Of a stretch of DNA of 64,000 nucleotides, positions 2,117 to 25,035 are shown one piece after another. The DNA lies in assembly GCA_902802905.1 (NCBI GenBank), contig CADCNT010000002.1, forward strand, positions 1-64,000. The letters run 5' to 3'. Below the pieces are notes generated by a model. That model saw nothing but the letters and a program-made list of their open reading frames with translations, made no database searches and was not told where the DNA came from. The position numbers and the translations under genes were made by a program. Positions within the stretch are counted from its first letter, which is position 1; every line of letters starts with the position of its first letter. Origin of the DNA: an uncultured Erysipelotrichaceae bacterium. GTDB lineage: Bacteria > Bacillota_I > Bacilli_A > RFN20 > CAG-826.

Positions 2117-2138
2117 AAAAAAGCACCGAAGTAGGTGC
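2117..2138 (-). terminator. Intrinsic terminator
   Basis: On the minus strand a GGCACC/GGTGC hairpin with a six-base loop is followed by six Ts (plus-strand A run 2117-2122). It ends the transcript of the small-protein genes at 2187-3078 before the metK-like gene. Confidence 0.75.
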
Positions 2139-2144
2139 CTTATT

Positions 2145-2178
2145 GATAGACTCCCTTATTATTAATAGGGAGACTATC
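2145..2178 (-). terminator. Hairpin downstream of small phage gene
   Basis: A long inverted repeat (GATAG-A-CTCCCT paired with AGGGAG-A-CTATC, one A/A mismatch) lies nine bases after the stop of the gene at 2187. It has no T run of its own but sits just before the terminator at 2117-2138. It may protect the mRNA 3' end or form a tandem terminator. Confidence 0.55.
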
Positions 2179-2186
2179 TAATAAAC

Positions 2187-2420
2187 CTATTCGATGTCCA
2201 CTAACCCATGAAGGCTCCCTTCCTCATAGATTTCTTTGAGTTCATCTGAGGTGTAGATGAGAACCTGGGCTTCAGGCATCGTTTTTGGTTTGTCAGTAGC
2301 GAAGACTATGGAGTTATTCCAGAATCCAACTGCTACTCTTGGTTTATTGAAGAGGAGCACCGTGCGGTTAAGCTTGATGCCCTTCTTTTCGGTAATCTTA
2401 ACAATTATTTCTAATCCCAT
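2187..2420 (-). CDS. Hypothetical phage protein (77 aa)
   Basis: A small protein with no family that I recognise. The start at 2420 is chosen because a Shine-Dalgarno GGGAGG lies seven bases upstream; an earlier TTG start would overlap that site. The sequence alternates hydrophobic and charged residues (predicted beta strands) and ends with an acidic helix. It overlaps nothing, begins just after the stop of the upstream 146-residue gene, and is followed by a hairpin and a terminator, so it is the last gene of its transcript. Confidence 0.5.
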   Translation of the reverse strand: MGLEIIVKITEKKGIKLNRTVLLFNKPRVAVGFWNNSIVFATDKPKTMPEAQVLIYTSDELKEIYEEGSLHGLVDIE

Positions 2421-7389: not shown

Positions 7390-9391
7390 ACCCTTCAATG
7401 CTCTTCATGATCGCTGAGATCGCATAGGAGTCGCTGGCTGTGAAATCTTCTTTTCTTTTGCCTAAGCATTCAGTCCAGATTTCAATGTTGCTAACTTCGG
7501 TCCTTTTAACAGTCCCTTCTTTATGCATTTCATGACCTATATCGCCTAAGAAAGAGATTCGAGCCCCTATGTCCATCTTCCACCAGTCTTCAGGAAGAAG
7601 AGTATTAAGGTATTCTCTAACAAGGCCCTCTCTTTCGTCGTGTTCCATTGCACCATTGGTAGCTTCTTCTGCAGCTTGAGATAATTCTTCGCTATCTAAG
7701 AAAAGGTTTTCTCCTTTAGCGGCAATCTCCACTACTTCGGACCAGATTTGATCTATTATATCGGCAGTAAGCTCCCATGCTTTTTTACTACCGGTACCTG
7801 GAGTTCTGACAGGCCAGAAACGTCTGTTTCCTGTAATGTCTCTAAGAAAGCCGTCCTCAGCATTTGTTGTGGCAAAGAAGATGCATTGTCTAGGGTGAGA
7901 ATTAACTCTTCTTCCAAAGGAAGCTCTGTATTTGTCGTCCTGCCTAGAGATAAAAGCTTTAACTTTATCAATGTCGGCCTTTTTCATGCCAGCCAACTCA
8001 CCGATTTCCAAGATCCAATAACCCTGAAGCTTTTCTGCTGCGGTTTTATCGTTCATATCAGAAATGTTCAAAGAGTCCGAATACCAATCCATCCCTAGCT
8101 TTGCAATAGCTGTTGATTTGCCCACCCCTTGAGGGCCATTAAGAACCAGGATATAGTCAAACTTAATGCCTGGATTAAATACTCTTTTGTAAGCAGCGAC
8201 TAGAATTTTCCTAATCACTGCTCTAGTGTATGGAGTATCTTCGGCACCAAAATAGTCGACAAGGAAGGTTTCAACTCTTGGAGTTCCATCCCATTTAGGA
8301 AGTTTTTCAAAATAATTCCTTATTGGATGGTAGCTTCTATCATCAACGACTTTTGTTACTGCGTTGTTATAATTCTCTTTAGAGAAATTGGTATAAGTTT
8401 TGTTAATGTAGCACACAAGTTGGGCATCATCGGCATCTCTCCAGAATCTAGATTTCGCAGGCCATGCTACAGGACCTATTATTTCTATGTCTGTTGCGAG
8501 CTCGTTATAAACAATGTTTTTAAGAAGAGGATCATTGTTAAGAATTAATTCAAGGTTTTCAGTGCAATTCACTATTGCGTGAGTTTTGTCATTCTTGATA
8601 AATTCGTCCTGCCAATTCTTATATTGTTCAGGAGGGACATAACCTTTGGTTAAAATCAAACGATTATAAAAGCTGTTTAAACTCTTCCAAATCGTGTTTT
8701 TGATTTCTTCTTCTTCAAGAGGAGGTTCACATACCTTTTCATTTCTTTCTAAAATGAGAGAGTAGGCTTTATCTGTGTAACCATATCTTTTAACGACTTT
8801 TGCACCAAAGCTAGAAAGATAACCATTTCTATGGCCTTCGCCAACCTTGAATGAAGCATCTTTTTCATCATCAATCCACTTCATGAAATCATCAACATTG
8901 AAAGTACCTTCTATAATCTCAACATTTGGATTTATAGTCCCATAAAAGAACCTAGCTGCATCCACTGCATTAGAGTCAAAAAACGGGAAATAACTATTAA
9001 CCTTCAGTTTTAAGTTTTTATAAGTTTCAATATCTGCTATTTCTTTAATTGGAAAAAGGATGTGAAATTTTGGTCTTGCGGCTTTTCCGTTCTTCGGTTT
9101 GTTGTGGCTTTTTGAGTAATGAATCATCATTGTGACATTAGGAAACCATTCCTTAACCATTTCTAGGTCAACCCAAGTTGATGGATCATCAGAATGATCG
9201 TTATCACAATCAAGCATAAGGCAGTCTGAAGTAATGAAGTTTTTATTGCTTCTGGTGTTCTTTTCATATTCGGCCCCAACGTAATCGTGAGAAACAACTT
9301 CGATCAAATCTTCACGAGTTTTAATCTCTTTGAAATTTGGATAAAGCTTGTTTTGTTGTTTGCCTACAACATTGGCATAAAAACACTTCAT
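7307..9391 (-). CDS. Primase-helicase, virulence-associated E (VapE) type
   Basis: A 694-residue phage replication protein. Residues about 1-170 resemble an archaeo-eukaryotic-type primase: LMLDCDNDHSDD carries metal-binding Asp residues, and RPKFHILFP comes later. A primase C-terminal helical segment (about 175-240) links to the VapE superfamily 3-like helicase: GPQGVGKST (Walker A, near residue 405), WILEIGEL (Walker B), FISRQDDKYR and FFATTN (sensor). The start at 9391 has AGGAGG nine bases upstream. The protein probably primes and unwinds phage DNA. A cluster of repeated hexamers overlaps the 3' end of the gene. Confidence 0.9.
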   Translation of the reverse strand: MKCFYANVVGKQQNKLYPNFKEIKTREDLIEVVSHDYVGAEYEKNTRSNKNFITSDCLMLDCDNDHSDDPSTWVDLEMVKEWFPNVTMMIHYSKSHNKPKNGKAARPKFHILFPIKEIADIETYKNLKLKVNSYFPFFDSNAVDAARFFYGTINPNVEIIEGTFNVDDFMKWIDDEKDASFKVGEGHRNGYLSSFGAKVVKRYGYTDKAYSLILERNEKVCEPPLEEEEIKNTIWKSLNSFYNRLILTKGYVPPEQYKNWQDEFIKNDKTHAIVNCTENLELILNNDPLLKNIVYNELATDIEIIGPVAWPAKSRFWRDADDAQLVCYINKTYTNFSKENYNNAVTKVVDDRSYHPIRNYFEKLPKWDGTPRVETFLVDYFGAEDTPYTRAVIRKILVAAYKRVFNPGIKFDYILVLNGPQGVGKSTAIAKLGMDWYSDSLNISDMNDKTAAEKLQGYWILEIGELAGMKKADIDKVKAFISRQDDKYRASFGRRVNSHPRQCIFFATTNAEDGFLRDITGNRRFWPVRTPGTGSKKAWELTADIIDQIWSEVVEIAAKGENLFLDSEELSQAAEEATNGAMEHDEREGLVREYLNTLLPEDWWKMDIGARISFLGDIGHEMHKEGTVKRTEVSNIEIWTECLGKRKEDFTASDSYAISAIMKSIEGWTRTSERKVVPGYGRQRVYKLQSKSGS

Positions 9392-9447: not shown

Positions 9448-11371
9448 TTACTCCTTCAAATAGAACTTGCAGCTATAGCCTTCAGCATTAAGGATTAATC
9501 CAGAAGCCCAATCAGGCAGTTTTGCCATGCTTTTCTCCACAAATTCCGGTGATTTACCGCTGAAATCCTCAATAATAAGCTCGTCATGAACGTGCATTAC
9601 TATGCGAGAATCTTTGAGAGTTCTCATGGCAAAGCAGAGAATGTCTCTAGCTGTTCCTTGACTTCTTTTGCTCGCCAATTCCTTCATAAGAAATGGATTC
9701 GTTTCCGTATTCGTTAATGATGATCTTTGGCTTAACGTATGAGAGCTTTCTACCACTTGGAAGAGTGATAAATAGCATTGAACTTTTATAGGTGAAGATA
9801 AGATTTCCGAGCTTCTTCTCACAAGAGCATTTTGTTTTTGTTCCTTCTTCAATCACATAGCGGACAGCATCGCCAACTTCCCACCAAAATTTAGTGATGT
9901 TTTTGTTAGCATTTCGCCATGATTTAACTAGAGGAACAAGCTCTTCTTCAGTGAGGCCAGAGCCTTCATCTAAAGCACCCATTGCAACTAGTGCTCCAGT
10001 GCTTCCACCATATCCAAGAGCAAGCTCGGCGATTTTACCCTTCTTTCTGAGTTCTCCATTAATGCCGTTTTTAACAACAGGAACGCCGAACATCTTACTT
10101 GCGGAAGAGCAATAAATATCTTCGTTATTTTTGAAAGCTTCTATTCTCCAAGTCTCACCTGCATACCAGGCAAGAACACGTGCTTCAATAGCAGAATAAT
10201 CGCTTACCAAGAACTGCCCATCTCCTTCTGGGATAAAAGCTGTCCTTAATAGTTGTGATAGAATATCTGGAACATCTTCATAGAGCATCTTGAGTGCTTC
10301 TACATCTTCTTTAAGAACCAGTTCTCTCACTACCGCTAAATCTGGAAGCTTGTTTTGTGGAAGATTATGAAGCTGAACGATATGGCTAGAAAAGCGGCCT
10401 GTTCTATTTGCTCCATAGAATTGGAACATTCCCCTAATTCTTCCATCACTGCAGACAGCTTCTTTCATGCGTTCATACTTCTTAATTGATGTTTTAGCGA
10501 GCATCTTTCTTAAAGCCATCGCAAGTCCAATTTCTGAATCTGCGAATTGCTTTTCTAAAGAAGTTACTGTCTTTTTGCCTAAATCTTCAGGTTCAACACC
10601 ATATTTAAGTAGCCATTGTTTAAGCTGAGCGACTGAGTTTGGATTATCTAGCTCTGTGATATCTACCATAAGCTTAGAAAGCTCTTCGTGGATCACTCCA
10701 TCGATTTTGATGGCTTTCTCTGCTAAAGCAGTATCTAAGTAAACGCCTCTATCATTGATTTCTTGATCGATGGCGTATTCTTCCCAGAGCCAGTCTGGAA
10801 GCGGATAGTTTTTAAGACGTTGTTGGATAGCAAGCTCCACTTCTACGTCTCTTTTGTTATAACGAAGAAATAAATCGCGTTTCTCTGGATGATTTTTAAA
10901 TAAGTTTTTTGTTGCGCCACCATTACTTTTGGTTGGTTTGACTGGACTACAGAAGAATTTGATAAGATCTCGTCCTTCTTCTAACTTCTGATTCTCTAGC
11001 TTGAGAACAGCTCCGACACCTTTTAGAGATAAAGGAAGTCCGAGATAGCTCGCAGCAACCATTGTGCATCGCCAACTACGAGGATTTAAGAACTTGTTCT
11101 TAGGTAGCCCAAGATATCGAGATAAGCAGACTCTTTCAAAGGAAGCATTGTAAGCATGTTTTATACAAGAATCATCATTAATAAGTCTTAAGATTTCAGA
11201 AGGAATAACTCCTCCTTCTTGTAAATTAACAACTTGAACTTCTCCTTCATTAAGAGAATAGCCGAAGCATAAGATTTCAAAACTTGGATCTTCTGAATAT
11301 CTATATGCCCCGGCTTTATTTAAGTTGACGTCTGAATAAGTCTCGATATCTATCGAAAGATGATTAATCAA
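9448..11371 (-). pseudogene. Phage family A DNA polymerase, frameshifted
   Basis: The first frame (11371-9647) has the 3'-5' exonuclease (LSIDIETYSD near the N-terminus, then AYNASFERV), palm motif A SDYSAIEARV and motif B KIAELALGYGG. It ends early at a stop just after YEGIGEQKK. The other frame (about 9659-9448) continues with QGTARDIL and motif C MHVHDELII, which supplies a catalytic Asp. Family members have roughly 15 residues (W...TYGGKLVEN-like) between KK and QGTARD, so about 47 bases appear deleted together with a +1 frame change. The polymerase is probably inactive unless the assembly is wrong. The TTG at 11371 is a guess; it overlaps the DUF2815 stop. Confidence 0.8.
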
Positions 11372-11927
11372 GGAAATCTTCGGTGTCGTCAGTTGCGAAG
11401 TCTTTTTCAGCCGAGACTTTACCACCTAAGTGGTCACCATCTGCAAGCTTGAGAACGTTATTGAGTCCAACAGCGATTCCCTTTGCACCATTTTTGTTAT
11501 AGGCATAGAAGCTGATTGAGACTTTTCCGTACATTCCTGAGTAGATTTCGCTAGGATCAAGAATTGGGTTTAAAGCGGCATCGACAATACCGACAGCACT
11601 AATGGAAGACGCATTTAAGAAATAGCTATCTTTATAGGCTGGATCGTCTGCTTTTTCAACATCTCCATCTCTTAATGGGATATGGATTGCTGAGAGAGCT
11701 GGTACTGTTTTGCCTGTGCCACGAAGCTTTGCTTCGCCTTCGTTATAGGCGGCTTCAATGGCTTTGTTGATCTTCTCTAAAGTGACAGTATCACTCTTAG
11801 GGATGATGATTGATGTTGAGTATTTTTCTTGACCACCCTCAACGGTAGCCTTCGCTTCTAAAATATTGCAATAAGAGAAACGAACTTTTCCGGTAATAAC
11901 CTTTGTTGGATTTACGACTTTTGTCAT
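11364..11927 (-). CDS. DUF2815 phage single-strand DNA-binding-like protein
   Basis: A 187-residue protein of the DUF2815 family, found beside DUF2800 and phage polymerase genes. It starts with TGKVRFSYCNILEAK, then shows STSIIIPKSD and a later MYGKVSISFYAYNKNG..AVGLNNVLKL segment, and has an acidic C-terminus (DDTEDFLD). The beta-rich fold and acidic tail are typical of single-strand DNA-binding proteins that recruit partners by their tail. Start and stop lie within a few bases of the neighbouring replication genes, which shows a single transcript. Confidence 0.85.
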   Translation of the reverse strand: MTKVVNPTKVITGKVRFSYCNILEAKATVEGGQEKYSTSIIIPKSDTVTLEKINKAIEAAYNEGEAKLRGTGKTVPALSAIHIPLRDGDVEKADDPAYKDSYFLNASSISAVGIVDAALNPILDPSEIYSGMYGKVSISFYAYNKNGAKGIAVGLNNVLKLADGDHLGGKVSAEKDFATDDTEDFLD

Positions 11928-13604: not shown

Positions 13605-14210
13605 TTAAAAACCTCGGCATTTTTCTTGTAAAACCTGGATGATTCGTTTGACTTCTCTATCAACTGAGCTTTTAGACATTTTTAATTCATTAGCTATATC
13701 GCGGACAGGTACGCCACGTGACCACATGTCTAAAATCGCCTGTTCCTTTTCATTTAATGAATGGATTTCAGACCACATCTTCTCTTTGCGTTCTTGATAG
13801 TAAATATCGGTAACGAAGTCCTCATCTGAAGCAGGTTCAAATTCATTTCCCTCTTCATCAGTGAGTTCTCCGAATGTTAGCGGTAATCTTTGTTGAAATT
13901 GATCATAGTCAAGCGGACTAGGATTCTTTGATAATTCTGGATCATCTGGATCATATCTAAATGGGCACTTCTCGCAGCTATGTTCGCAAACGATAAGTTT
14001 TCCTTTTTTGCCTGGTATTAGGCATTTGGTAATTTTTTCATGATATTGTTTTTCTTTATCAATGATGTCCTTAAGCTTCATTCCTAGCTCGTAGGAAACA
14101 TAAATTTTGACACCACCGGTCATTTCAAGAGGAAGATAGTAAGTTCTATCGCTACTCTTCTTGGAGTAATCAACTCCATCACATACTAAGTTAATTTTGA
14201 TCTTTGCCAT
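13605..14210 (-). CDS. Phage HTH protein with Cys-rich centre
   Basis: A 201-residue protein. Residues about 70-85 hold CEHSCEKCPF, a possible small metal site. The C-terminus (about 155-195) is a helix-turn-helix, EKEQAILDMWSRGVPVRDIA followed by MSKSSVDREVKRI, similar to sigma region 4 or LuxR-type HTHs. A GGAGAC Shine-Dalgarno precedes the ATG. It is near the start of the early operon and probably regulates transcription. I cannot assign a family with confidence. Confidence 0.6.
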   Translation of the reverse strand: MAKIKINLVCDGVDYSKKSSDRTYYLPLEMTGGVKIYVSYELGMKLKDIIDKEKQYHEKITKCLIPGKKGKLIVCEHSCEKCPFRYDPDDPELSKNPSPLDYDQFQQRLPLTFGELTDEEGNEFEPASDEDFVTDIYYQERKEKMWSEIHSLNEKEQAILDMWSRGVPVRDIANELKMSKSSVDREVKRIIQVLQEKCRGF

Positions 14211-14369
14211 GTTCTGGTCTCCTTTTTGTTCGGTTTGGAAACCAGTTCTGGCATCGAGGCAGCACTAAAAGAGCTAAATCGGAATTACAGGAATGGTTTC
14301 CTAGTAGTTCGCTTTCAGCTCTTAATTACTGATTGCTATGTTCGGCTCTGAATATTAAGAATTTGTCGA

Positions 14370-14537
14370 CTAAGACAGAGCCATTTGTTTGAGGTTTTGT
14401 TCACTATCAAGATCCACTTCGGTTAAGAACTTTTTAATTTCTGAAATAATGACACCTAATGTGCGTAACAACTTGATGCTGATTTCGACACCCTTTTGGG
14501 CATCGCTGCAGCCTTGAATAAGTTCGTTCTTTTTCAT
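14370..14537 (-). CDS. First small protein of the phage early operon (55 aa)
   Basis: A 55-residue protein beginning MKKNELIQGCSDAQK, with helix-rich amphipathic sequence. The start at 14537 follows AAAGGAGG nine bases upstream. It is the first gene after the structured leader at 14580-14726 and would be controlled by it. The next gene is 159 bases downstream. No recognised domain. Confidence 0.5.
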   Translation of the reverse strand: MKKNELIQGCSDAQKGVEISIKLLRTLGVIISEIKKFLTEVDLDSEQNLKQMALS

Positions 14538-14579
14538 GCTTCTTCGCCTCCTTTCCGTTTGCATTTGCGGCAGGGAAAC

Positions 14580-14627
14580 AAAAAAGCGCCTAACAAATAC
14601 AAACTAATAGCTGTTCATCGTTAGGCG
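14580..14627 (-). terminator. Alternative terminator/attenuator hairpin in the leader
   Basis: CGCCTAAC (plus-strand 14620-14627) pairs with GTTAGGCG (14587-14594) across a 25-base loop and is followed by the same six Us. This hairpin and the 19-bp helix share the 3' arm, so they exclude each other. That is the layout of an attenuator upstream of the gene at 14537. Confidence 0.55.
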
Positions 14628-14726
14628 TTCCTTCTAGGCTATTGCCTATTCTACGTCTGTCATAAATAGTCCTTGTTCTGCCGAGCAGAAGTCTCTATCT
14701 GTAGCTTGTTTGTATTTGTTAAACGC
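14580..14726 (-). ncRNA. Structured leader RNA with closing 19-bp helix
   Basis: Minus-strand arms at 14726-14708 and 14604-14586 can pair over 19 continuous base pairs (GCGTTTAACAAATACAAAC with its partner; two G-U pairs), immediately followed by six Us at 14585-14580. Inside are two small hairpins (TTCTGC/GCAGAA and AGGC/GCCT). An alternative local hairpin uses part of the 3' arm (see the terminator entry). This is a designed-looking RNA of about 147 nt, either a stable small RNA with a terminator end or the leader of the early operon. I do not recognise a named RNA family. Confidence 0.6.
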
Positions 14727-14785
14727 TTCACTAATTGTGGATTGTCCAACAAATCGATATCATAGCTCGATTGCATTTTTTGCAT
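14660..14785 (-). CDS. Possible 41-aa leader peptide
   Basis: A short frame, MQKMQSSYDIDLLDNPQL onwards, ends TTATGA at 14660. It runs straight through the 5' arm (14708-14726) of the leader helix, so a ribosome on it would break that helix. No Shine-Dalgarno is visible, an in-frame TGA lies directly before the ATG, and the frame may be chance. It is listed because its position fits a translation-controlled attenuator. Confidence 0.25.
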   Translation of the reverse strand: MQKMQSSYDIDLLDNPQLVKRLTNTNKLQIETSARQNKDYL

Positions 14786-14975
14786 TCAAGCACCGCTATT
14801 GTATAGTATTTGTCGTGTTTTTTCTAGTTTTATCGGTTTTAAGTCATTTGAGTTTCCTCCGTTTTACCCAGACTTCGCTGAGCTTTTCTGACTACATTGT
14901 CGCCCATCGTTTTTATTAAAAATAGGGAAAACAGCACCCCTAATAACCGATAATGGGTACCCACTTTTTTGCATT
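14728..14975. other. Non-coding region between defence operon and phage leader
   Basis: About 250 bases with no convincing gene apart from the possible leader peptide. It holds an AATCGA...TCGATT inverted repeat (about 14752-14773) and a doubled TTGCATT. It should contain the early promoter of the phage operon on the minus strand, but no clean -35/-10 pair is visible. Confidence 0.35.
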
Positions 14976-15002
14976 AAAAAAAGCCAGATAAAATCTGGCT
15001 TT
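14976..15002 (-). terminator. Intrinsic terminator of the defence operon
   Basis: A perfect 10-bp stem AAAGCCAGAT/ATCTGGCTTT with a three-base loop, followed on the minus strand by seven Ts. It lies 20 bases after the ABC ATPase stop and separates the defence operon from the phage early operon. Confidence 0.9.
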
Positions 15003-15022
15003 ATGGCATCATTTTCACGAAC

Positions 15023-16789
15023 CTAATCTTGATAATTTTTCACGAAACCATAACGTCCGTTGTTAGGATCTTTCGTGAATTCTATTCTATTAACTCCTTC
15101 GTAATCTATGTCAGGAATATCGTTTTCGATTGCGATGATTTGCATGTCCCTAGCGCACTCCTTCAAATAGGTGAATAAGGCTTTCTTTATTTGATCCGGA
15201 AGCTCTTCATTTCTCTTTTCTCTTAGTGACAAGATAGGAGAATCGACTAGAAGCAATCCAGGCTTATAGTATCCTCTTTCTATCAAAACCTGCTGAAGAG
15301 CCAGTGCAAGTATCGTGTTGTAAAAACCCTTGAAGCCTTCGCCTTCATATTTCTTTTCGCTGCCGTTGATTTTAATATCAAAGTCACCATAGACGAAATC
15401 GATTTCATTTTCCCTGCCATTACATCTATCAATGCCGGCTTTCGCCTTAGTCACAAGGAAGCCAGAAAGAAGTGATTCAATGTATTCTCTAGGATTGTAT
15501 TTCGTAATTTCGACCTTTATCTTCTCGACCTTCTTATGCTCTTCGATTGCATCATTAAGGTTTTGGACGGCATTATTGTACTCAGCTTCGGAAACAACCG
15601 CGGTCTGATAGCTGTTAATCTTACTTTGAAGCTGCTTGACTAACGGCTTTAACTCATGATTGATCTCGGCATCAATAGCTTTCTTTTTGCCGACCAATTC
15701 GGAAACTTTCTCTTTTAGAGAAGCAAGCTCATCTTCGATAGCTTTTTTCGCTTCTTTCAAATCCTTTATTTGAGGTACAAGCTTCTTGAGCTCTGCTTCT
15801 GCAGCTTCTTCGCACGTCTCCTCTTCTTCTTTCTCAAGCTTGCCATTGCAGAATGGACATCTTTGAGGCTCTTCGACATCCGAGGAATGAGCCTTTCCAT
15901 CGACAATAAGCTCCATCCTTCTTAAATCCGATTCGTATTGGCTAAGGAGCGTGTTGTATTTTTCTATGAAGTTGTTAAGTTCAGCGATTCTATCGTTCAG
16001 GCCGATGATTTGGTTGGAGAGGCCTTTGCTCTCTTCGATCTTCTTGTTAAGCTCTTCATTCACTTCGTTGAGCCTTCTGATAAGCTCATCGATATCCTTT
16101 TTGAATTGCTCAGGCTCGCCAATCTTGAACCCTTCGTATGATTTCAACTTCTCAGTAAGCTTATCAACTTGCTCTTTCAGGTATTTTTCGAGCGCTTTCT
16201 TTCTGGCGGCTTTTTCAATAGGATTGCCTTCAGGATCTATGTGATTGTCCCTGGACAAAAGGTAGATTAATGCCGATTTGAACGAAGTCGCGCTTGTGTT
16301 CTGCTCTGGGGCGAGGATACTTTCTTCTTTGCTTACATCGTTTTCTTTAATTACAAAAGTATGGGAGAACGTTCTGAAAGTTAGATTGTTCTTTTCCCAA
16401 TTCTCGTTCTTAAGGATCTCCACTCTCTCGGTAAAGCCGATAAGCCTTAGCAATACATCGCTGTAGCTCATCCCATTTTCGTCTTTTTGCTTATATTCTC
16501 TGCATTCCAAACCTTGGATGTTCGTTTCTACAACCACAAGAGTCTTCTTGCCTATGGACCTAAGCAAAACAGCATATCCATCGTCGCATTCCACTCTCGC
16601 TTTGATCTCTTTTGCGTTGAAGTGCGGATTGACTTCTTTCTTTGCGCCGAAGATGAAATCGATGCAATCCAAAATGACGGACTTACCAGTATTAGATGGG
16701 CCATAAACAACGTTAAATCCATCGTCAAAGCTCACAGCAGACACTTCATCATTGTTCTGAATAAGCTGTATTTCTTTAATTCTTAACAT
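15023..16789 (-). CDS. ABC-3C system Rad50/SbcC-like ATPase
   Basis: A 588-residue SMC/Rad50-type ATPase. Walker A is GPSNTGKSV (near residue 31). A long coiled coil runs from about 190 to 430, interrupted by a zinc-hook-like CPFCNGKLE..C near residue 303. A C-terminal Walker B, GLLLVDSPIL, with D and S in the family position, is followed by IIAIEND. It is the last gene of the operon, after the ABC-3C effector and middle component, with a GAGGAGG site eight bases before the ATG. In ABC-three-component systems this subunit is thought to sense foreign nucleic acid and activate the effector. That function is family knowledge and not shown here. Confidence 0.85.
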   Translation of the reverse strand: MLRIKEIQLIQNNDEVSAVSFDDGFNVVYGPSNTGKSVILDCIDFIFGAKKEVNPHFNAKEIKARVECDDGYAVLLRSIGKKTLVVVETNIQGLECREYKQKDENGMSYSDVLLRLIGFTERVEILKNENWEKNNLTFRTFSHTFVIKENDVSKEESILAPEQNTSATSFKSALIYLLSRDNHIDPEGNPIEKAARKKALEKYLKEQVDKLTEKLKSYEGFKIGEPEQFKKDIDELIRRLNEVNEELNKKIEESKGLSNQIIGLNDRIAELNNFIEKYNTLLSQYESDLRRMELIVDGKAHSSDVEEPQRCPFCNGKLEKEEEETCEEAAEAELKKLVPQIKDLKEAKKAIEDELASLKEKVSELVGKKKAIDAEINHELKPLVKQLQSKINSYQTAVVSEAEYNNAVQNLNDAIEEHKKVEKIKVEITKYNPREYIESLLSGFLVTKAKAGIDRCNGRENEIDFVYGDFDIKINGSEKKYEGEGFKGFYNTILALALQQVLIERGYYKPGLLLVDSPILSLREKRNEELPDQIKKALFTYLKECARDMQIIAIENDIPDIDYEGVNRIEFTKDPNNGRYGFVKNYQD

Positions 16790-17231
16790 TGGTAAATCCT
16801 CCTCTTTTCACTAAGTCGGCCATGAATTTTCGAACGCTTTCATCTTTTTGAAGATCGTACTTCTCAAACGCTCCTTCTGCTGTCGACATATAATTTTCGC
16901 CGTACACATTGTCGAGCGAATCTATAAAGTTAATGCCATTATCATTGATTTGGTACTTGAAACCATTATCTTGCGTCACATCGACAAGTCCTCTAGTAAC
17001 CAATTCCTTAATCGCCATATCCACAAGTTCTTTTCTTGAGGCAATTTCTCCAAACTTATAAGCACTATCGCCATGGAGATTGGACTCAGAAACCCCATAG
17101 TCCTTCCCATAACAGCAGATAAAGTCATAGCAGACAAATTGGTATTTATCCATCTTGTCGAAAGGGCAATTGATGAGAAGCATCAATATCCTCAGTTGCA
17201 TTTCAAATGGCGTGTTGAAAAATCTATTCAT
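16776..17231 (-). CDS. ABC-3C system middle component (MC)
   Basis: A 151-residue protein. It starts FFNTPFEMQLRILMLL, continues YDFICCYG, and has a central SNLHGDSAYKFGEIASRKEL, the pattern I know for ABC-3C middle components (short winged-helix-like adaptor). It ends with an alpha-helical segment. The start at 17231 has GGAGGAG seven bases upstream and overlaps the effector gene by eight bases. It probably bridges the effector and the ATPase. It is coupled to both neighbours by overlap. Confidence 0.8.
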   Translation of the reverse strand: MNRFFNTPFEMQLRILMLLINCPFDKMDKYQFVCYDFICCYGKDYGVSESNLHGDSAYKFGEIASRKELVDMAIKELVTRGLVDVTQDNGFKYQINDNGINFIDSLDNVYGENYMSTAEGAFEKYDLQKDESVRKFMADLVKRGGFTNVKN

Positions 17232-18240
17232 CCAGTTTCTCCTCCACCCATTTGATTTTTTCATCATTAACTAGCATGTGGGTGATTCCTTTTCTCTCTT
17301 GGGTTTTGATCCATCCAGGGAGATGCATGAGAACGCTATTAAGAGGAATAAACGTCACCCTTTCCATTATTGCGTTCATTTTTTCTTTTCCAGAAGCATA
17401 GCTTTTGTTGCATGTGTCTTCTAGACCAGTGAAAATTTCGCTCTTTAGCTCATCGAAAAAATGATAGCCATAGGTTTCAGTGTCCCTAAGGCCAACTCTT
17501 ATTGATTCGGCAGCGTAATAGTAGCCGCGTTGTTTGTTAAAATCATCGAGACACGCGGTATCTGAAACAAGGTCGCTCTTCTTCACGAAGATAACATGTG
17601 CGGCCTCAGAGTAAACCTTTAGAAGCTCTTTGACGTAGTTTAATTCTTCGTCTTTAATATCATCTGGTGTCACGATGGCGACTGGGTGCTCCCTGCTATT
17701 GAGAATATCAATGATATCGTTCGTAGTGAGATTGTTATCGCCTAGTGATCTGTTTGCTTTTTTAGCCACAGGATTTGTTTTGTTGTCTGCGACAATCGCA
17801 AGCATGAAAACCTCTCTGAAGAAAAGCTTGTCTTCATTCCCTTTGTTGGCATTATAAAGCCCATTGACATAGCGCCTCTTTGCTATATCGATTTCTTCAT
17901 CTGATTGCACCAATTCGTTTAATTCTTTGAAAATATATCGATTTTGCAGACTATTTGTCACGATTCTGTTCAAAAGCAACATTGAAATGCTTCCGTCTTT
18001 GTCGTGGCCGTTGAAGTATCTAGTCATTCCTGCCCTCAACAATGGATAAACATCTTCGTTACCCTTATAAAGCGATCCGCACATTTTCGGAGTAAGACGG
18101 TATTGCTTATGTGATCTATCCCTGATATCCGCCTTTTTGATAGGATCCTCCAATAAACCTTTCACCAAAAAAGTCATTTGCTTCTTTTTAGCAAATTTAG
18201 TGATTACCTTTAAAAATGATGAGAAGGTTAAGACGGCCAT
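17224..18240 (-). CDS. ABC-3C system effector with ABC-3C C-terminal domain
   Basis: A 338-residue protein. The C-terminal third carries the ABC-3C C-terminal domain: RGYYYAAESIRVGLRD, FFDELKSEIFTGLED and GITHMLVNDEKIKWV. The N-terminal 210 residues should hold the effector activity, but I see no nuclease, TIR, protease or membrane motif that I can name; the segment is helical with acidic and basic patches. Gene order effector-MC-ATPase is normal for this class. It starts two bases after the upstream GIY-YIG gene stop. What it attacks is unknown. Confidence 0.75.
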   Translation of the reverse strand: MAVLTFSSFLKVITKFAKKKQMTFLVKGLLEDPIKKADIRDRSHKQYRLTPKMCGSLYKGNEDVYPLLRAGMTRYFNGHDKDGSISMLLLNRIVTNSLQNRYIFKELNELVQSDEEIDIAKRRYVNGLYNANKGNEDKLFFREVFMLAIVADNKTNPVAKKANRSLGDNNLTTNDIIDILNSREHPVAIVTPDDIKDEELNYVKELLKVYSEAAHVIFVKKSDLVSDTACLDDFNKQRGYYYAAESIRVGLRDTETYGYHFFDELKSEIFTGLEDTCNKSYASGKEKMNAIMERVTFIPLNSVLMHLPGWIKTQERKGITHMLVNDEKIKWVEEKLDE

Positions 18241-18241
18241 A

Positions 18242-18937
18242 TTATTCTTCGTTATCCTCTTTTTCCTTCTTGCGATAGACGTTTATTGGATTTCCGTCTT
18301 TATCTCTCCAGCAATTCCAGCCGTTGTCATTGTGACCTGAGATCATTGCCGCGGCTTGGGAAACGGACGAGCACACAACATCTTCTTGTAAGATTGATCC
18401 TTTGAGCGGTAAGGACATCCTAAAAGGGACCCACGAGAATATTGATGGAGTTTTTTCAGATAAAGGAGCACAAGTAGAATCTTTTTTAAGTGTTAGAACA
18501 CCATTAGCAACGGCTAAAACACCAGAATAAGTATTTCTATCTGCCTTTGATTTAACTTGATAATAATACTCTCCATCAGGAAGCGATGAACTTTCTACCG
18601 CTTCTGTGGCTTGCTCAAACACCTCTTTCTTATCTTCTTCTGGATACACCACTCTTCCGTCGAGAGAAGAAAGGAGCTGACGAACCATATTGACGTCCAA
18701 AGAGAACATTTCGGTATCGCCTACTCTACTCTTGGAGAAAATTTCATGAAGCAGAACTTCTTTTTCATCGTAGTTGTCAAGTTCTATTGCGAAGTTTCTT
18801 TTTAATCCGCTGACATTTCTATAACCATTACTTTCAAGGAATCTCATTCTTTCCTCGAAATTGTCTGTTTTGGTTTTTCCTATTTTGACTAAGCCGCTAA
18901 CAACGGTTGTCATCAAATAAATAATTCCTTTCGCCAT
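18242..18937 (-). CDS. GIY-YIG (T5orf172) nuclease with DUF4357 domain
   Basis: A 231-residue protein. The N-terminal domain, MAKGIIYLMTTVVSGLVKIGKT, carries the GIY-YIG-like Y..L...VKIG.T core of the T5orf172/MUG113 family, with downstream Arg and a Glu-His pair (LLHEIF). The C-terminal DUF4357 domain shows SVSQAAAMISGHNDNGWNCW and KDGNPI. An AAAGGAGG site precedes the ATG. It lies between the helicase fusion and the ABC-3C effector in the same operon. It could be a nuclease for the R-M arm or a DNA-binding accessory to ABC-3C; the sequence does not decide. Confidence 0.8.
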   Translation of the reverse strand: MAKGIIYLMTTVVSGLVKIGKTKTDNFEERMRFLESNGYRNVSGLKRNFAIELDNYDEKEVLLHEIFSKSRVGDTEMFSLDVNMVRQLLSSLDGRVVYPEEDKKEVFEQATEAVESSSLPDGEYYYQVKSKADRNTYSGVLAVANGVLTLKKDSTCAPLSEKTPSIFSWVPFRMSLPLKGSILQEDVVCSSVSQAAAMISGHNDNGWNCWRDKDGNPINVYRKKEKEDNEE

Positions 18938-18951
18938 TCTCTATTCCTCCT

Positions 18952-21900
18952 TTATTTCAGCTTCCAATTAAAGAAGAAATCAGAAACAAACACATCTCTG
19001 TTGGCATACAAGATCTTGTTGATCTCTTTTTTGGAAACACCAAGAATGTCTGCGATCTTTCCAGATTTCATTCCTTTGCCCGATTCTCTTAAAACTTTTA
19101 CTATTTGATCTTTCAAAGAGAGAGGTTCTTCTTCAACTATCGCTTTTGGCTTAGCTACTACCTTTGGAGAGCTGAATTCAATAGCTTCATCTAGTAGCCT
19201 AGAGTCAAAACCAAATGCTTTGTATCCCTCAGAAACTCGTTCAACATATTCATCAGAAGGTCTTCCGAGTTTTCTATCCTCGTGCATAATGTAAACGAAT
19301 GCTTCGATTTGGCTGAATGATCCATCATCAGCCTTAAGTTCAACTTTTATATCTTTTTTATAGTAGAAAGCAGGGTATCCTTCGTATCTATCTAGCGATG
19401 CTTCGTCATTTTCATTAACGACGAAAACACCAACAGGAACAGCATATCCGTTAGCCCTCTCGATTGTGAGGTAGTTTCCAGAGGAACTTCCCTTAAACAT
19501 CAAGCGATAGTCATGGATAACTGATGTCCCTACTTTCCTTGCGGTTGGGCATCTGCTGGACATTTGTTCCAAATTGAGATTGCTGCCATAAGCCAAATAA
19601 TAGCGAATTGGTTTCTGTGGTTTTTCTTCCACCACTAGTTCTGGTTCTTCTTCAGCAGGCTTTTCCACAGCATTTACAGGTTCCTCAACAGGTTTGCTTG
19701 AAACAAACGTTCTCGAAATTCTTGTTTGTTCTGGAGCTTCAGTATGTGTTTCGCCTTCAATTCCAAATTCAAACCAATCAAAGCTGTTTCTATAGTTCTT
19801 TCTTACTTCTTCATTTGATAAATCTAAAGTAGATCCAATTGATTCGTTTTCAAAGAATTCTCTAATGAAGCCATTAAGGATATCTTCTTTGAAGATGTGA
19901 TACTTGTTGAGAACCTCAAAGTCCTTCTTAGTGATACCGACAGCTTCTAAGAACCTATCCGGATCTGCATTCTTAAAGATTTCATCAAATGTCGTTTCTC
20001 TATAAACAGAAATATATAGGAATTCAAATAAACGAGCCAAGATGTGCTGCATGACGTTATCTGCATCTTGGATAGAAGTGTCATCGGCGTTTTTGATTAC
20101 AGGTACCAAGGCTTTCTTTACTGCTTTTCTAAATGAATCACAGTACCAGCGCTTGTAGATCTTTCCCCTATATTCCTGAGGAATGTTGTTTATGTCATTA
20201 AGATAGGCAACAACAAAGTTCTCTATCTTTTGCTTTGTTTCAGTTGTATATGTAATTTTTTCGCCGAAATGTTCTCTTACTTTGTCGACAAACTTAAGAC
20301 CATCGGCTTTGCCGCATTGGAGCTTCTTAATAGGAGCGTTGACGCCTTGTTCATAGCCTTTCTTGAAGCCATTAATAAAGTATTTCTTATGGAGCTCATC
20401 TAAATCTGAAGGAATGTTTTCTTTGATGTGCTTTTCTTCGTTTGCATCGTATTGTTCTTGGACTTCATTATCATCTAAATCAAGGTAAAGCTTACTATCA
20501 GCCATACCTAAGGCATAGCCTTTATCTCTTCCTTCTAAAGTAACCTTATCCTTAAAACTTGCATCATCTGGTTTAGGAGGGACGTCTCTATCCTTGGATT
20601 TTCCAAATTTTGCATGTGCAAAGACATGTTTAATAATGTCGCTAACCTCCTCGTCATTGAGCATAGCGGCGATTGTATCTTCATCTTGGATCCAGGTCGT
20701 ATTTTTGGTGTCCCTGATTTTCTTTGAAAGCGGCTTTCCTCTGCTATCACCAAACTCAGCAAGCTTGAAGAATGTATCTTCGCCAATTGGGTGTTCCATG
20801 TCGCCATCCATGAAAATAGGTAAGTACTTAACGATCAGTCTAGCGACTTGCATCTTCGTATATGCATTTTCCTTAGATGATTCTTCGGCATATTTTAAAA
20901 GAAGCGAAGCTGCTCTATCTATGTTGAAATCATATACATAACCATCAGTTTTGAGGATCTTTCCGTTTTCAACCAATGGTGTCTGAATTCTAAATATCGC
21001 CTGGAAATATGATTCAGGGCTAGCTAAGTCCTTCAAAACGAAAACACTAAACCACTTCTTAACCGTGACACCTATAGTTAGCTTATTAACAGTGATTGAA
21101 ATGCTGCCGATTTTACCGGTGTTTTCTCCAGCGGTCATGCTTTCATTTAAAAATGTAAGGGCGTTTGTACCACTACCAACGTTCCTATCGGATAGATTGA
21201 TGATCTGGTATCTAGAGAAATAATCATCTTCTTGAAGCAACTTTGCCATCGCATAGCATGAGTTGACAGTTGGCATGAGCCAAATCGTATGTTTGCTGTT
21301 AGGTGTAAGTTTTGGATTAGAATATGGGAAATTCTTTCCGTGCATTGAAGCGCCTTTTATAATTTCAAGCCAAAGTTTAATCTCATCCTCATAAAGGAAT
21401 TGGTATCCAAAGGCTTCGTCGTAATCTTTCCTCGTCTCAAAGAATTTGTTCAAGGAAAAATAACTTCTTCCCAATACCTTATCATCCGAAACCACCGAAT
21501 TGGCTAGCCCAGGGAACAAAGACTTCATGTCATAACCGAAGATGCTCATATCTGGGAATTGGGCATAATCTTTATTCGGGGTCCAATCGTCGTTCTCACT
21601 ATTAGGATATTTCCTCTTTTGCTCATCAAAGTATGAATATGTGCTTGATGTTTTATCTGTAAATTCGCCTCTTGCTAAAGCTCTGAAAGGAGTTCCTGAG
21701 AGACAGATTGTTTTCTTTGTTTTGATTTCGAATTTCTTAACGACATCCTTCGTGTCTTTGAGGTTTTTCTGATAGTCCTTATCAAGGTCCTCGAAAGTAT
21801 CCTGAGTTCTAGCATTCCAGGCTCCAAAATGGTATTCATCGAGAACCACCAAATCCCAATCAACATCTTGAAGCTTTTTGATTTTGTCTTTTGTTGTTTG

Positions 21901-22731
21901 GCTTTGGCTGTCTTTGCCTAAGTAGTTCTGCAACGATAAAAACACAACGAAAGGCTCAGTCTTACCTTTTAAGGTAAAATCATTCCTTCTGATGTTGTCG
22001 TCGGTATAGTACTTATATACCTTATTTATATGAAGCAAGTCATCCTGCCATGATTTCTCAACTGCTGGGATGAATGTCAAAATTAAAATCTTATTGATAT
22101 TGTTGTCTTCTGCAAACTTATAGGTCGTATAGCATTTTCCGAACCTCATTTTGCAGTTGAGAAGGAATCTTCCTCCTACTGGATGTTTGTCAAAATATGC
22201 AACTAAATCATCTATCGCTTTTTGCTGCTCAGCTCTAGGAGTATAAACAACTCTGCTGCTTCCGCTTTTTCTGATCTCGTTGAAAATAGAAATCAATTCA
22301 TCAGGATGGATGTTGACAAACCACTCCTGCTCTTTTTCTTGAATTCCTGCGTACTTAGCTTTGATCTCGGCATGAACGCGATAATCTTTGAAGGATTCGC
22401 TATTGGTGTCTAAGCAGATGCCCCAATAGATGACTTCTCTGATGTCACCATAGCCTTTAGCAAATTGATCATCGGTCAAAGCTAATTCATGTTGTTGATC
22501 CTTAATTCTAGATTTGATTGCATGCCAAAAGGTCTCTCCCATTTTGCACTTGGTCATGCCTACCTTGACTCCATGATAAACGAAGTTAGGAAGTTGGTAC
22601 ATATAAATCAAGATCAAGTCTTGATCGGTTGTGTTTTTGTCATCCAGTTGGAAAAGAACGTCCTTTCCACTGAATCTGACTGTATCCTCAGAATTTATAT
22701 TCTGGCCACGTTGGATTACTACTTCGCTCAT
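18952..22731 (-). CDS. GIY-YIG/SF2 helicase/GGCT-like/HTH fusion restriction protein
   Basis: A 1,259-residue multi-domain protein. Residues about 35-160 resemble a GIY-YIG (T5orf172-like) domain: YMYQLPN then GVKVGMT, with HAEIKAKY and EWF later. A superfamily 2 restriction-type helicase follows: MRFGKCYTT (Walker A variant, near residue 200), VLDEYHFG (motif II) and LSGTPF (motif III), with a long C-terminal helical region to about 1000. Residues about 1042-1180 form a gamma-glutamylcyclotransferase/AIG2-like domain: LAYGSNL and later LDRYEGYPAFYY, with the catalytic-type Glu. A C-terminal winged-helix segment (GKIADILGVSKKEINKIL) ends the protein. It is presumably the restriction subunit partnering the methyltransferases upstream. 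The cyclotransferase-like domain is unexpected. Confidence 0.8.
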   Translation of the reverse strand: MSEVVIQRGQNINSEDTVRFSGKDVLFQLDDKNTTDQDLILIYMYQLPNFVYHGVKVGMTKCKMGETFWHAIKSRIKDQQHELALTDDQFAKGYGDIREVIYWGICLDTNSESFKDYRVHAEIKAKYAGIQEKEQEWFVNIHPDELISIFNEIRKSGSSRVVYTPRAEQQKAIDDLVAYFDKHPVGGRFLLNCKMRFGKCYTTYKFAEDNNINKILILTFIPAVEKSWQDDLLHINKVYKYYTDDNIRRNDFTLKGKTEPFVVFLSLQNYLGKDSQSQTTKDKIKKLQDVDWDLVVLDEYHFGAWNARTQDTFEDLDKDYQKNLKDTKDVVKKFEIKTKKTICLSGTPFRALARGEFTDKTSSTYSYFDEQKRKYPNSENDDWTPNKDYAQFPDMSIFGYDMKSLFPGLANSVVSDDKVLGRSYFSLNKFFETRKDYDEAFGYQFLYEDEIKLWLEIIKGASMHGKNFPYSNPKLTPNSKHTIWLMPTVNSCYAMAKLLQEDDYFSRYQIINLSDRNVGSGTNALTFLNESMTAGENTGKIGSISITVNKLTIGVTVKKWFSVFVLKDLASPESYFQAIFRIQTPLVENGKILKTDGYVYDFNIDRAASLLLKYAEESSKENAYTKMQVARLIVKYLPIFMDGDMEHPIGEDTFFKLAEFGDSRGKPLSKKIRDTKNTTWIQDEDTIAAMLNDEEVSDIIKHVFAHAKFGKSKDRDVPPKPDDASFKDKVTLEGRDKGYALGMADSKLYLDLDDNEVQEQYDANEEKHIKENIPSDLDELHKKYFINGFKKGYEQGVNAPIKKLQCGKADGLKFVDKVREHFGEKITYTTETKQKIENFVVAYLNDINNIPQEYRGKIYKRWYCDSFRKAVKKALVPVIKNADDTSIQDADNVMQHILARLFEFLYISVYRETTFDEIFKNADPDRFLEAVGITKKDFEVLNKYHIFKEDILNGFIREFFENESIGSTLDLSNEEVRKNYRNSFDWFEFGIEGETHTEAPEQTRISRTFVSSKPVEEPVNAVEKPAEEEPELVVEEKPQKPIRYYLAYGSNLNLEQMSSRCPTARKVGTSVIHDYRLMFKGSSSGNYLTIERANGYAVPVGVFVVNENDEASLDRYEGYPAFYYKKDIKVELKADDGSFSQIEAFVYIMHEDRKLGRPSDEYVERVSEGYKAFGFDSRLLDEAIEFSSPKVVAKPKAIVEEEPLSLKDQIVKVLRESGKGMKSGKIADILGVSKKEINKILYANRDVFVSDFFFNWKLK

Positions 22732-22732
22732 A

Positions 22733-24400
22733 TCAAATCATCTCTCTAATTAAGGATTCGATATCCTTTATCTCAGTTTCGTCAAGGCCATACATTTCAT
22801 AGAGTTCCTTGTCGCTCCACGATTTTTCATAAGTCAAATTCGGGACAAATTTAAAATTATCTTTTGTAATATGCATAGAACTTAAGGTCAATAAAACTAA
22901 ATATCTAGCAAATTTTGTCTTAATATACGATGCATAATTATTTGCCTCTTGTTCCGTGTCAAAAGCACCAAGTAATAAATAAGTAGCTGTAAACGCTTCC
23001 CCTGGTTTGTAAATTTTTATTTTTGTTGTGACATTAGACATACCATCGCTAGCGTTATTAACACCTCCTCTATCAGGGTTTAACTGACCGATAGAAACTT
23101 TATATTTATCGATAATATCTGCTCCTTTTGGGAGGGAATCTTTTTTAATATAGAATTCGCCAGCACTAGCAATAACCTTTATTGAATTATCAAAAGGTTT
23201 TTCTTCACCTCTTGTATTGGTTGGAAGCCCAAATGGGGATATCGGATAAACTAGCCTGTCAAGGAATACTTTTGTTTTAGCCCTTATTTTGTCAATAATT
23301 CCAATTCCGATATTGCTTCGTATAAATACATCGAAATCATTGAGTAGTCGATTCTTTGATGTTGTTTTTCCACCGACGCTACTGACGACTTGACATTTTC
23401 CTTGATGTTCAGAATCCCACAAGAAATAGCAAACGCCTCCAGCTATATCAACGTTTGGAAAGCAGTCTCTGCTCTTTGGAAAATCAACCAATAAAGCCAT
23501 TCTCTTATCATTCAGCATCTTCTCTCTGAATAAATCCATTCCCATTCCGCCAGTAAACCATCTCGAAGGAATAATCATTGAAATATACTTCGGAGATAAC
23601 GAGATAGCTTGTTCAACAAATTTGTGATAGATAGGCGTTGCCTGAATTCCTGAGTCGTTTGTACTCAATTGATATGGTGGGTTGCCTATTATAATGTCGA
23701 ATTTCATATTCTTATCTCCTTTAAAAAACCTATTTCTTAAATGTCTTTCTATAACCAAATGGTTAACATGCATAAATTCATAAGCATATTGTTCTCTTTG
23801 GTTCGCATCTAAATATTTTGAATCGTGTGCCACGCCACAATACTTGCATTTCTTTGTTTTCGGATCTATTTCATGGCTTGTATTTGGAGTTTTAATGTTC
23901 CCCTCGGTATCTGAAAACCATGTTCCGTTTCCTATGGCATATCCATTAACAAAGTGACCGTCTGGAGCTTTTATTCCGTCACATGCTCTATTCGCTTCTG
24001 AACAATAATAAACGGTTCTTCTGGCTACATTAGCAGTGAACTTAGTTAGTCCAATAGAAAAGACCATATTTTGTAAAATGTGTTTTCTTCTTGTTTCTTT
24101 ATCAGGAATAACATCTTTTAATCCTTCGTCAAGCCTAATAGCAATTTCACGTTCAAAAATACCATTTTTTGTTGCAGGATTTAGCCACTTATAATTTGGA
24201 TTATGCCAAACTTCATCAGGCAAAGAGTCAAGCATCATATCAGCAGTTTTTCTAGGTGTGAAAACTTCGTCATTGCCGACGTTTGTAATAGTTTCAAGAA
24301 TGTCGAAGTGCTCTATATAATCGCTAGCTTCTTCTACAGCTGTATTGTATTTCTTCTCAGCGCTTAGGCCTTCGCTGGTCTTTTTATCTTCATCTACCAT
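22733..24400 (-). CDS. Eco57I-type DNA adenine methyltransferase (modification subunit)
   Basis: A 555-residue N6-adenine methyltransferase. Near residue 65 comes a motif I variant LNPATKNGIFEREIA, in place of the usual D-P-x-C-G-x-G. A zinc-like CKYCG..H follows. The catalytic IIGNPPYQLS is near residue 238, then PIYHKFVEQA and MIIPSRWFTGG, typical of this restriction-associated family. The C-terminal half probably recognises DNA. The start overlaps the upstream gene by seven bases, and the helicase starts two bases after its stop. It probably methylates the host site that the helicase-nuclease restricts. Confidence 0.85.
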   Translation of the reverse strand: MVDEDKKTSEGLSAEKKYNTAVEEASDYIEHFDILETITNVGNDEVFTPRKTADMMLDSLPDEVWHNPNYKWLNPATKNGIFEREIAIRLDEGLKDVIPDKETRRKHILQNMVFSIGLTKFTANVARRTVYYCSEANRACDGIKAPDGHFVNGYAIGNGTWFSDTEGNIKTPNTSHEIDPKTKKCKYCGVAHDSKYLDANQREQYAYEFMHVNHLVIERHLRNRFFKGDKNMKFDIIIGNPPYQLSTNDSGIQATPIYHKFVEQAISLSPKYISMIIPSRWFTGGMGMDLFREKMLNDKRMALLVDFPKSRDCFPNVDIAGGVCYFLWDSEHQGKCQVVSSVGGKTTSKNRLLNDFDVFIRSNIGIGIIDKIRAKTKVFLDRLVYPISPFGLPTNTRGEEKPFDNSIKVIASAGEFYIKKDSLPKGADIIDKYKVSIGQLNPDRGGVNNASDGMSNVTTKIKIYKPGEAFTATYLLLGAFDTEQEANNYASYIKTKFARYLVLLTLSSMHITKDNFKFVPNLTYEKSWSDKELYEMYGLDETEIKDIESLIREMI

Positions 24401-25035
24401 AGATCCACTCCTTCCTCGTGAACATTTATTTCATTTTCACTTATTTCCCATACCGGCATATCAAGCGGCTTCAAATTCCCTTTTTCTGCCTCAGGCATCT
24501 TATAGGCCACGTCTATTCCTAAAAGCAATCCTTCATCACTTTGAGTGTTTGACATTGCCCACATGAAGTTTCTCACAATAATGCATCTAAGAATATCGAA
24601 GTAGGAAGTATCGACTTGAATTTTGTTTTCAACAATAAAGTGCTTCACTAAAGTGAATATATTATTTCTTTGCTTTTCAATTAATTCTTCATCCATTTCT
24701 ATAGAGTAGATAGTAGATAAAGCTCTGAGTGATTCAATTTCAAAATTCTTAGTTATCTTCTCAAGACGCTTTTGGAGAATGTATGTAGTAAACGCACCAT
24801 CACCAGAGGTTGGTTCGAGGACGGTTTTTGAAGAATCAAAAATATCAGGACCTATGGCTTGACACATATCTTTGACAATGAAATCGGGAGTAAAAATTTG
24901 ATAACCCTCAGTATCATTATGGCCCATAGAGGCAAGTTGAATAGTTTCAAAAGCTTCAATTAAGTCAAAAGCTTTAATCTGTTCTTTTTTAAATTCAGCC
25001 TTTATTTGATTAACATAATTTGAAAAATCAATCAT
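24394..25035 (-). CDS. Methyltransferase-fold accessory protein without NPPY
   Basis: A 213-residue protein. SAM-binding motif I is intact (VLEPTSGDGAFTTYIL, near residue 72), followed by YSIEMDEELI, an acidic motif II. No NPPY or DPPY catalytic motif is present and the protein ends soon after. IFTPDFIVKDM matches the start of an Eco57I-type catalytic domain. Its partner gene has NPPY but a degenerate motif I, so the two may form one split enzyme. The ATG overlaps the XRE stop (ATGA), showing coupled translation. Confidence 0.7.
   Translation of the reverse strand: MIDFSNYVNQIKAEFKKEQIKAFDLIEAFETIQLASMGHNDTEGYQIFTPDFIVKDMCQAIGPDIFDSSKTVLEPTSGDGAFTTYILQKRLEKITKNFEIESLRALSTIYSIEMDEELIEKQRNNIFTLVKHFIVENKIQVDTSYFDILRCIIVRNFMWAMSNTQSDEGLLLGIDVAYKMPEAEKGNLKPLDMPVWEISENEINVHEEGVDLW

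Follow-up and report, generated by a model that had tools for sequence, protein, structure and literature searches.

The window, the 64,000-nt stretch of DNA analysed here, is the start of a 148-kb contig (G000:C2) in a 1.54-Mb genome. It carries a minus-strand prophage that reaches from the vicinity of a tRNA gene (25596-25523) to position 1, with the gene order methyltransferase, helicase, GIY-YIG, ABC-three-component (ABC-3C) set and then the replication operon. The cargo block between the tRNA gene and the replication operon (15023-25035, minus strand) contains methyltransferases, a 1259-aa helicase-like protein, GIY-YIG and the ABC-3C genes (MC2 and CTD6 by Pfam). G246, the closest relative at the protein level (DUF2800 54% identical), carries ABC-3C genes at the corresponding position and has the same ABC-3C and replication gene order. 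The replication operon encodes an HTH/sigma-like protein, DUF2800, an Enc34-type ssDNA-binding protein, DNA polymerase A and VapE. The DNA polymerase gene of the window is split in two frames (about 9661; 9448-11425, minus strand), where the otherwise matching sequence of another genome, G002, has an extra 46 nt; the split may reflect prophage decay or an assembly error. The near-identical G002 element runs on into genes that, by our reading of their sequences, resemble terminase, portal, protease, capsid and tail genes.

The leader studied here lies between the terminator of the upstream ABC-3C operon (15002-14980) and the replication operon (Table 1). Its putative promoter is the best promoter-like site in 14211-15010, with a score that is ordinary for the genome. 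The U6 run at the end of the leader is 27 nt from the Shine-Dalgarno of the first gene, with no room for an obvious second promoter between U6 and this gene, whose product of 55 aa is 50 aa long in G002 because 36 nt differ near its end (window ~14390). Two further signals were seen on the minus strand upstream of the putative promoter. One is a perfect Shine-Dalgarno (GGAGG) followed by AUG ACU UAA (14860-14839), relevant only if transcription starts further upstream; the other is a long-range inverted repeat, UUAUCGGUUAUUAG / CUUAAAACCGAUAA (14953-14940 and 14843-14830), a possible operator pair.

Table 1. Features of the leader region in the window and pseudoknotted RNAs in related prophage sequences.
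Feature	Position	Strand	Basis
Putative promoter, TAGAAA-17-TACAAT; transcription start near 14791	14798..14826	-	inferred
41-codon open frame over the distal 5' arm, probably not translated	14660..14785	-	no Shine-Dalgarno, off-frame-like codon score
Distal 5' arm of the 21-bp far helix, AAGCGUUUAACAAAUACAAAC	14708..14728	-	pairing analysis
Proximal 5' arm of the 10-bp near hairpin, CGCCUAACGA	14618..14627	-	pairing analysis
Shared 3' arm: 21 nt in the far helix, GUUUGUAUUUGUUAGGCGCUU; 14596-14587 in the near hairpin, UUGUUAGGCG	14584..14604	-	
U6 run, presumed termination point of both structures	14580..14585	-	sequence
First gene after the terminator, 55 aa; Shine-Dalgarno AAAGGAGG at 14553-14546	14373..14537	-	coding signal 0.369
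Hairpin hiding the Shine-Dalgarno of the HTH gene, 9 bp, CUGGUUUCC/GGAGACCAG (14245-14237 x 14222-14214)	14214..14245	-	predicted fold
HTH/sigma-like gene, start of the replication operon proper	13605..14210	-	Pfam HTH_38, PHROG sigma factor matches
Pseudoknotted RNA	L047:8879-9039	+	
Pseudoknotted RNA	L048:13115-13276	-	
Pseudoknotted RNA	L050:8016-8172	-	
Pseudoknotted RNA	L089:2315-2476	-	
Pseudoknotted RNA	L090:9158-9319	+	
Pseudoknotted RNA	L091:2574-2735	-	
Pseudoknotted RNA	L113:1501-1664	+	

The minus-strand sequence of the leader can form two alternative structures that have U6 and one 3' arm in common. The far helix consists of 21 contiguous pairs, two of them G-U, between arms separated by 103 nt; without the two A-U pairs that reach into the U-run it counts 19 bp, as in the initial annotation. 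The near hairpin has 10 bp (8 Watson-Crick pairs, a G-U and an A-U), a loop of 21 nt and a computed stability of about -15.5 kcal/mol. The long helix and shorter terminator hairpin of the initial annotation, sharing one 3' arm and the same six Us, are thus confirmed, at 21 and 10 bp when fully counted. The 215-nt fold has a minimum free energy of -58.2 kcal/mol (z -4.35), and its last 75 nt give a z of -3.67. On the minus strand, the two imperfect pairs of the far helix are G-U wobbles; read from the plus strand, both would be A-C mismatches. In the near hairpin, these two Gs are engaged in full G-C pairs. As the wobble is compatible with pairing on the minus strand only, an RNA function of this strand is favoured. 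The pattern points to selection acting on the minus-strand RNA, although the indication comes from no more than two positions.

At 8,125 T5-runs in composition-matched Markov sequence, far helices reached at most 16 bp, and none of these runs combined a far helix of at least 14 bp with a near hairpin of at least 8 bp. Among 2,664 real T5-runs from the window and its relatives, this site alone exceeded 16 bp, and it is the sole site in the window, on either strand, with a near hairpin of at least 6 bp and a far helix of at least 11 bp jointly. The two-armed structure is therefore unlikely to be due to chance, the length of the far helix being far beyond random expectation. A repeat element was rejected, as no second copy of the leader was found elsewhere in the genome.

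In stepwise folding of the transcript, the far helix is favoured as soon as the whole 3' arm is available (-60.9 kcal/mol at 14584). If the distal arm is blocked, the near hairpin takes its place at this U6 (-46.6 kcal/mol), and with the proximal arm blocked, the far helix forms; when both 5' arms are blocked the terminator is lost (-41.7 kcal/mol). In these predicted folds, the terminator structure survives the block of either 5' arm and disappears only with both. Since both alternatives use one common 3' arm and run up to one and the same U6, neither is an antiterminator in this model, and an exchange between far helix and near hairpin would leave a terminator in place. The short open frame reported to cover the 5' arm is indeed present. 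In contrast to the 55-aa gene behind the terminator, it has neither a Shine-Dalgarno nor a codon signal: its codon score is 0.002, where real genes give 0.30 ± 0.18 and off-frame sequence -0.05 ± 0.17. No credible homologues of its peptide were detected; the frame is probably untranslated. According to the folding model, a ribosome on it would merely exchange one terminator for the other. Of the attenuator-like leader of a phage early operon that was initially proposed, the structured leader, the terminator-like 3' end, the coding strand and the position directly upstream of the replication operon stand, while the switch between the structures by translation or a protein is not supported, both being terminators and the frame having neither a Shine-Dalgarno nor a coding signal.

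The most economical reading of the predicted folds is a leader terminator with a spare 5' arm, to which we give about an even chance. The RNA polymerase would start near 14791 on the minus strand, and the emerging 3' arm would pair preferentially with the distal arm (duplex about -27 kcal/mol) or, if this arm is occupied, with the proximal one (about -14 kcal/mol). Either helix would end at U6 and stop transcription, which would confine most transcripts to a leader RNA of about 205 nt and keep the operon low in the lysogen. With the second arm, the stop would be robust, and the release of a single arm would not switch it. The operon would then be expressed by read-through, brought about by an antitermination factor or by an agent that sequesters the shared 3' arm, or both 5' arms together. 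A far helix beyond chance and a near hairpin at the same U-run, the response of the folds to blocked arms and the G-U pairs that exist on the minus strand only, with the same Gs in G-C pairs of the near hairpin, all speak for this leader terminator, as does its position after the terminator of the upstream operon and 27 nt before a Shine-Dalgarno and coding gene. On the other side, intrinsic terminators do not usually have loops like the two seen here (21 and 103 nt), the site is not listed by the terminator scan and the putative promoter is an average match only.

The leader is present in one other genome, G002, where its sequence is identical and thus uninformative on covariation. No divergent homologues of the leader were found in 96 related genomes or in the phage collection, so the leader terminator reading has no homologue of different sequence to draw on, and the gap of about 335 nt in G246 contains no such terminator element in spite of the same gene order, which also counts against it. 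When viral contigs were searched for exact copies of the 3' arm, a single match appeared, in a short reading frame of L106, a phage contig that is otherwise unrelated. No viral-contig relatives of the HTH and 64-aa proteins were found.

We then compared the leaders of 58 distinct DUF2800 or ssDNA-binding loci, window included. A long helix was found at 6 of 586 U-runs upstream on the sense strand, at 1 of 944 on the other strand and at 0 of 421 downstream, and this excess on the upstream sense strand favours the leader terminator, although two of the six sense-strand sites are better read as operators. These are L100 (about 2125-2275, minus strand) and L102 (8251-8365, plus strand), which present repeat pairs of the GGACA-N-TGTCC type upstream of the operon. 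Being palindromic, these repeats are probably repressor operators, and both loci were rejected as analogues of the two-armed leader. Apart from the window, only L100 among the 58 loci combines a near hairpin with a far helix, and it is operator-like. The parallel between the leader and the helices of its relatives is consequently weak. A long leader hairpin with U7 precedes the HTH gene in the viral contig L084 (6472-6576, plus strand; leader z -5.25). This hairpin is possibly an independent leader terminator, and its occurrence at the same leader position in a distant DUF2800 phage supports the leader terminator reading.

Searches with Rfam 15 at gathering threshold returned a tRNA alone in the window and nothing credible for the leader at E up to 10, in agreement with the initial view that it is not a known RNA family; no Rfam model of the P4 CI, IsrK or C4 RNA families matched. 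In the relatives, tRNAs, a tmRNA and a twister ribozyme were the only hits, with nothing credible in the leaders of two relatives. The twister, of type P5, lies in a viral contig with a DUF2800 gene (L085:2535-2591, plus strand). The DUF2800 and DUF2815 candidate RNA motifs of Weinberg et al. 2017 are reportedly putative regulatory RNAs near the same phage genes; the window, its tRNA apart, has no match at gathering threshold in the Rfam copy used, which may or may not include these motifs.

As in an attenuator, a predicted terminator hairpin with U6 precedes the operon, but the alternative helix would not keep a terminator from forming, as it borders on that U6 as well, and a translated leader peptide, as in ribosome-controlled attenuators, is not apparent from the Shine-Dalgarno and codon signals. 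The trp, pyr and T-box attenuators (PMC7430163) likewise have a leader with mutually exclusive helices upstream of an operon; there, a terminator competes with an antiterminator, whereas here both helices end at the same U-run. The 5' leader terminators known from premature-terminator analysis (PMC2965389) resemble this leader in having no visible antiterminator, as in the rimP leader, but differ by the second 5' arm found here, the host and gene, and the lack of family membership. By analogy, the leader would work most like a 5' leader terminator, with a layout that recalls P4 CI immunity and IsrK. In P4, the CI RNA pairs with seqA and seqC, leading to termination, and the Gifsy-1 IsrK transcript partly reads through its own terminator (PMC4825925). 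The likeness would consist in termination of a short or leader RNA ahead of phage genes, several mutually complementary segments and downstream expression that needs read-through (PMC4825925), while here the complementary segment carries the U-run, two 5' arms precede it and neither sequence nor model matches.

A trans-acting leader RNA of the P4 CI or IsrK type, of about 205 nt, that pairs with nascent leaders and gives RNA immunity or activation, is suggested by the layout, in which two 5' segments can each pair with a single 3' segment ahead of phage replication genes (PMC4825925). We regard it as unlikely, since no Rfam model matches, the segment order is unlike that of P4, and the complementarity of the leader to prophage mRNAs, its own arms excluded, is not above that of shuffled leaders. 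A leader with a double lock, where two inputs would have to free the two 5' arms for the common terminator to open, or a terminated RNA acting in trans as a P4-like lysogeny layer, would be distinctly less probable. At a similarly low level stands the proposal that the arms are DNA operators bound by the phage repressor, with the ACAAATAC sites as candidates for repressor binding. ACAAATACNA is found four times in the 64-kb window, three of them in the leader (at the putative -10 and once per arm), and the similar-looking repeats of L100 and L102 are palindromic and precede the operon as operators would; the arms here, however, lack palindromic symmetry, both mismatches can be wobble pairs on just one of the strands, and the near hairpin with U6 is left unexplained. 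A chance or relic structure with no regulatory role would agree with its being unique to one prophage lineage, yet the joint presence of so long a far helix and a near hairpin, together with the fold z-scores, makes this very improbable. The initial model, in which translating the short frame would expose or mask the distal arm and thereby turn the operon on or off, is the least probable of all: the frame does overlie the distal arm, but both alternatives are terminators, the frame has no Shine-Dalgarno or coding signal, and its peptide has no homologue. The leader terminator is, on the modelled folds, the likeliest role for what is one unreplicated sequence with sound anatomy.

Prophages usually keep their replication genes off by a repressor protein, and two redundant 5' arms in a leader terminator would add a second lock at the RNA level. 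The trans-acting or double-lock reading, if true, would represent a P4-like RNA layer in phages of a small-genome host group. We found no regulatory studies of this phage group in the literature. The leader, the hidden ribosome site of the HTH gene and the structured RNAs of the relatives suggest that early control leans on RNA structure.

Directly before the HTH gene, region 14211-14370 forms a second structured leader (z -4.42). A translational switch at this gene through the pairing GGAAACCA/UGGUUUCC was rejected, with -23.3 vs -43.7 kcal/mol for the hairpin that hides the Shine-Dalgarno. Relatives share structure at the HTH gene start. Hairpins enclose the Shine-Dalgarno adjoining the start codon in G246 and L084, and a pseudoknotted RNA of about 160 nt overlaps the start of the gene in seven other prophage sequences. 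In an alignment of six of them, 11 of 33 pairs are changed on both sides, which was reached by 0 of 500 shuffles; as the sequences are related, this is a strong result and not a probability. The corresponding model, R1, gave strong scores in 8 of 279 genomes, one of them new to the set. Its best match in the window, outside the leader, had 11.1 bits (E 3.2), and none was found in the genome; the L047 sequence had no Rfam match. In six of the seven RNAs, the Shine-Dalgarno is directly followed by AUG-UAG, and in L050 by UUG-UGA. In these prophages, the HTH frame apparently starts further downstream, perhaps by reinitiation, at an AUG or UUG that has no Shine-Dalgarno of its own. Upstream of the HTH gene in L043, L092, L094 and L102, a different shared structure was recognised by eye, made of a CAGCC..GGCUGU hairpin and a GCGAGAU..AUCUCGC helix, the latter as GCGGAGU..ACUCCGC in L043; a pseudoknot is likely in this structure.
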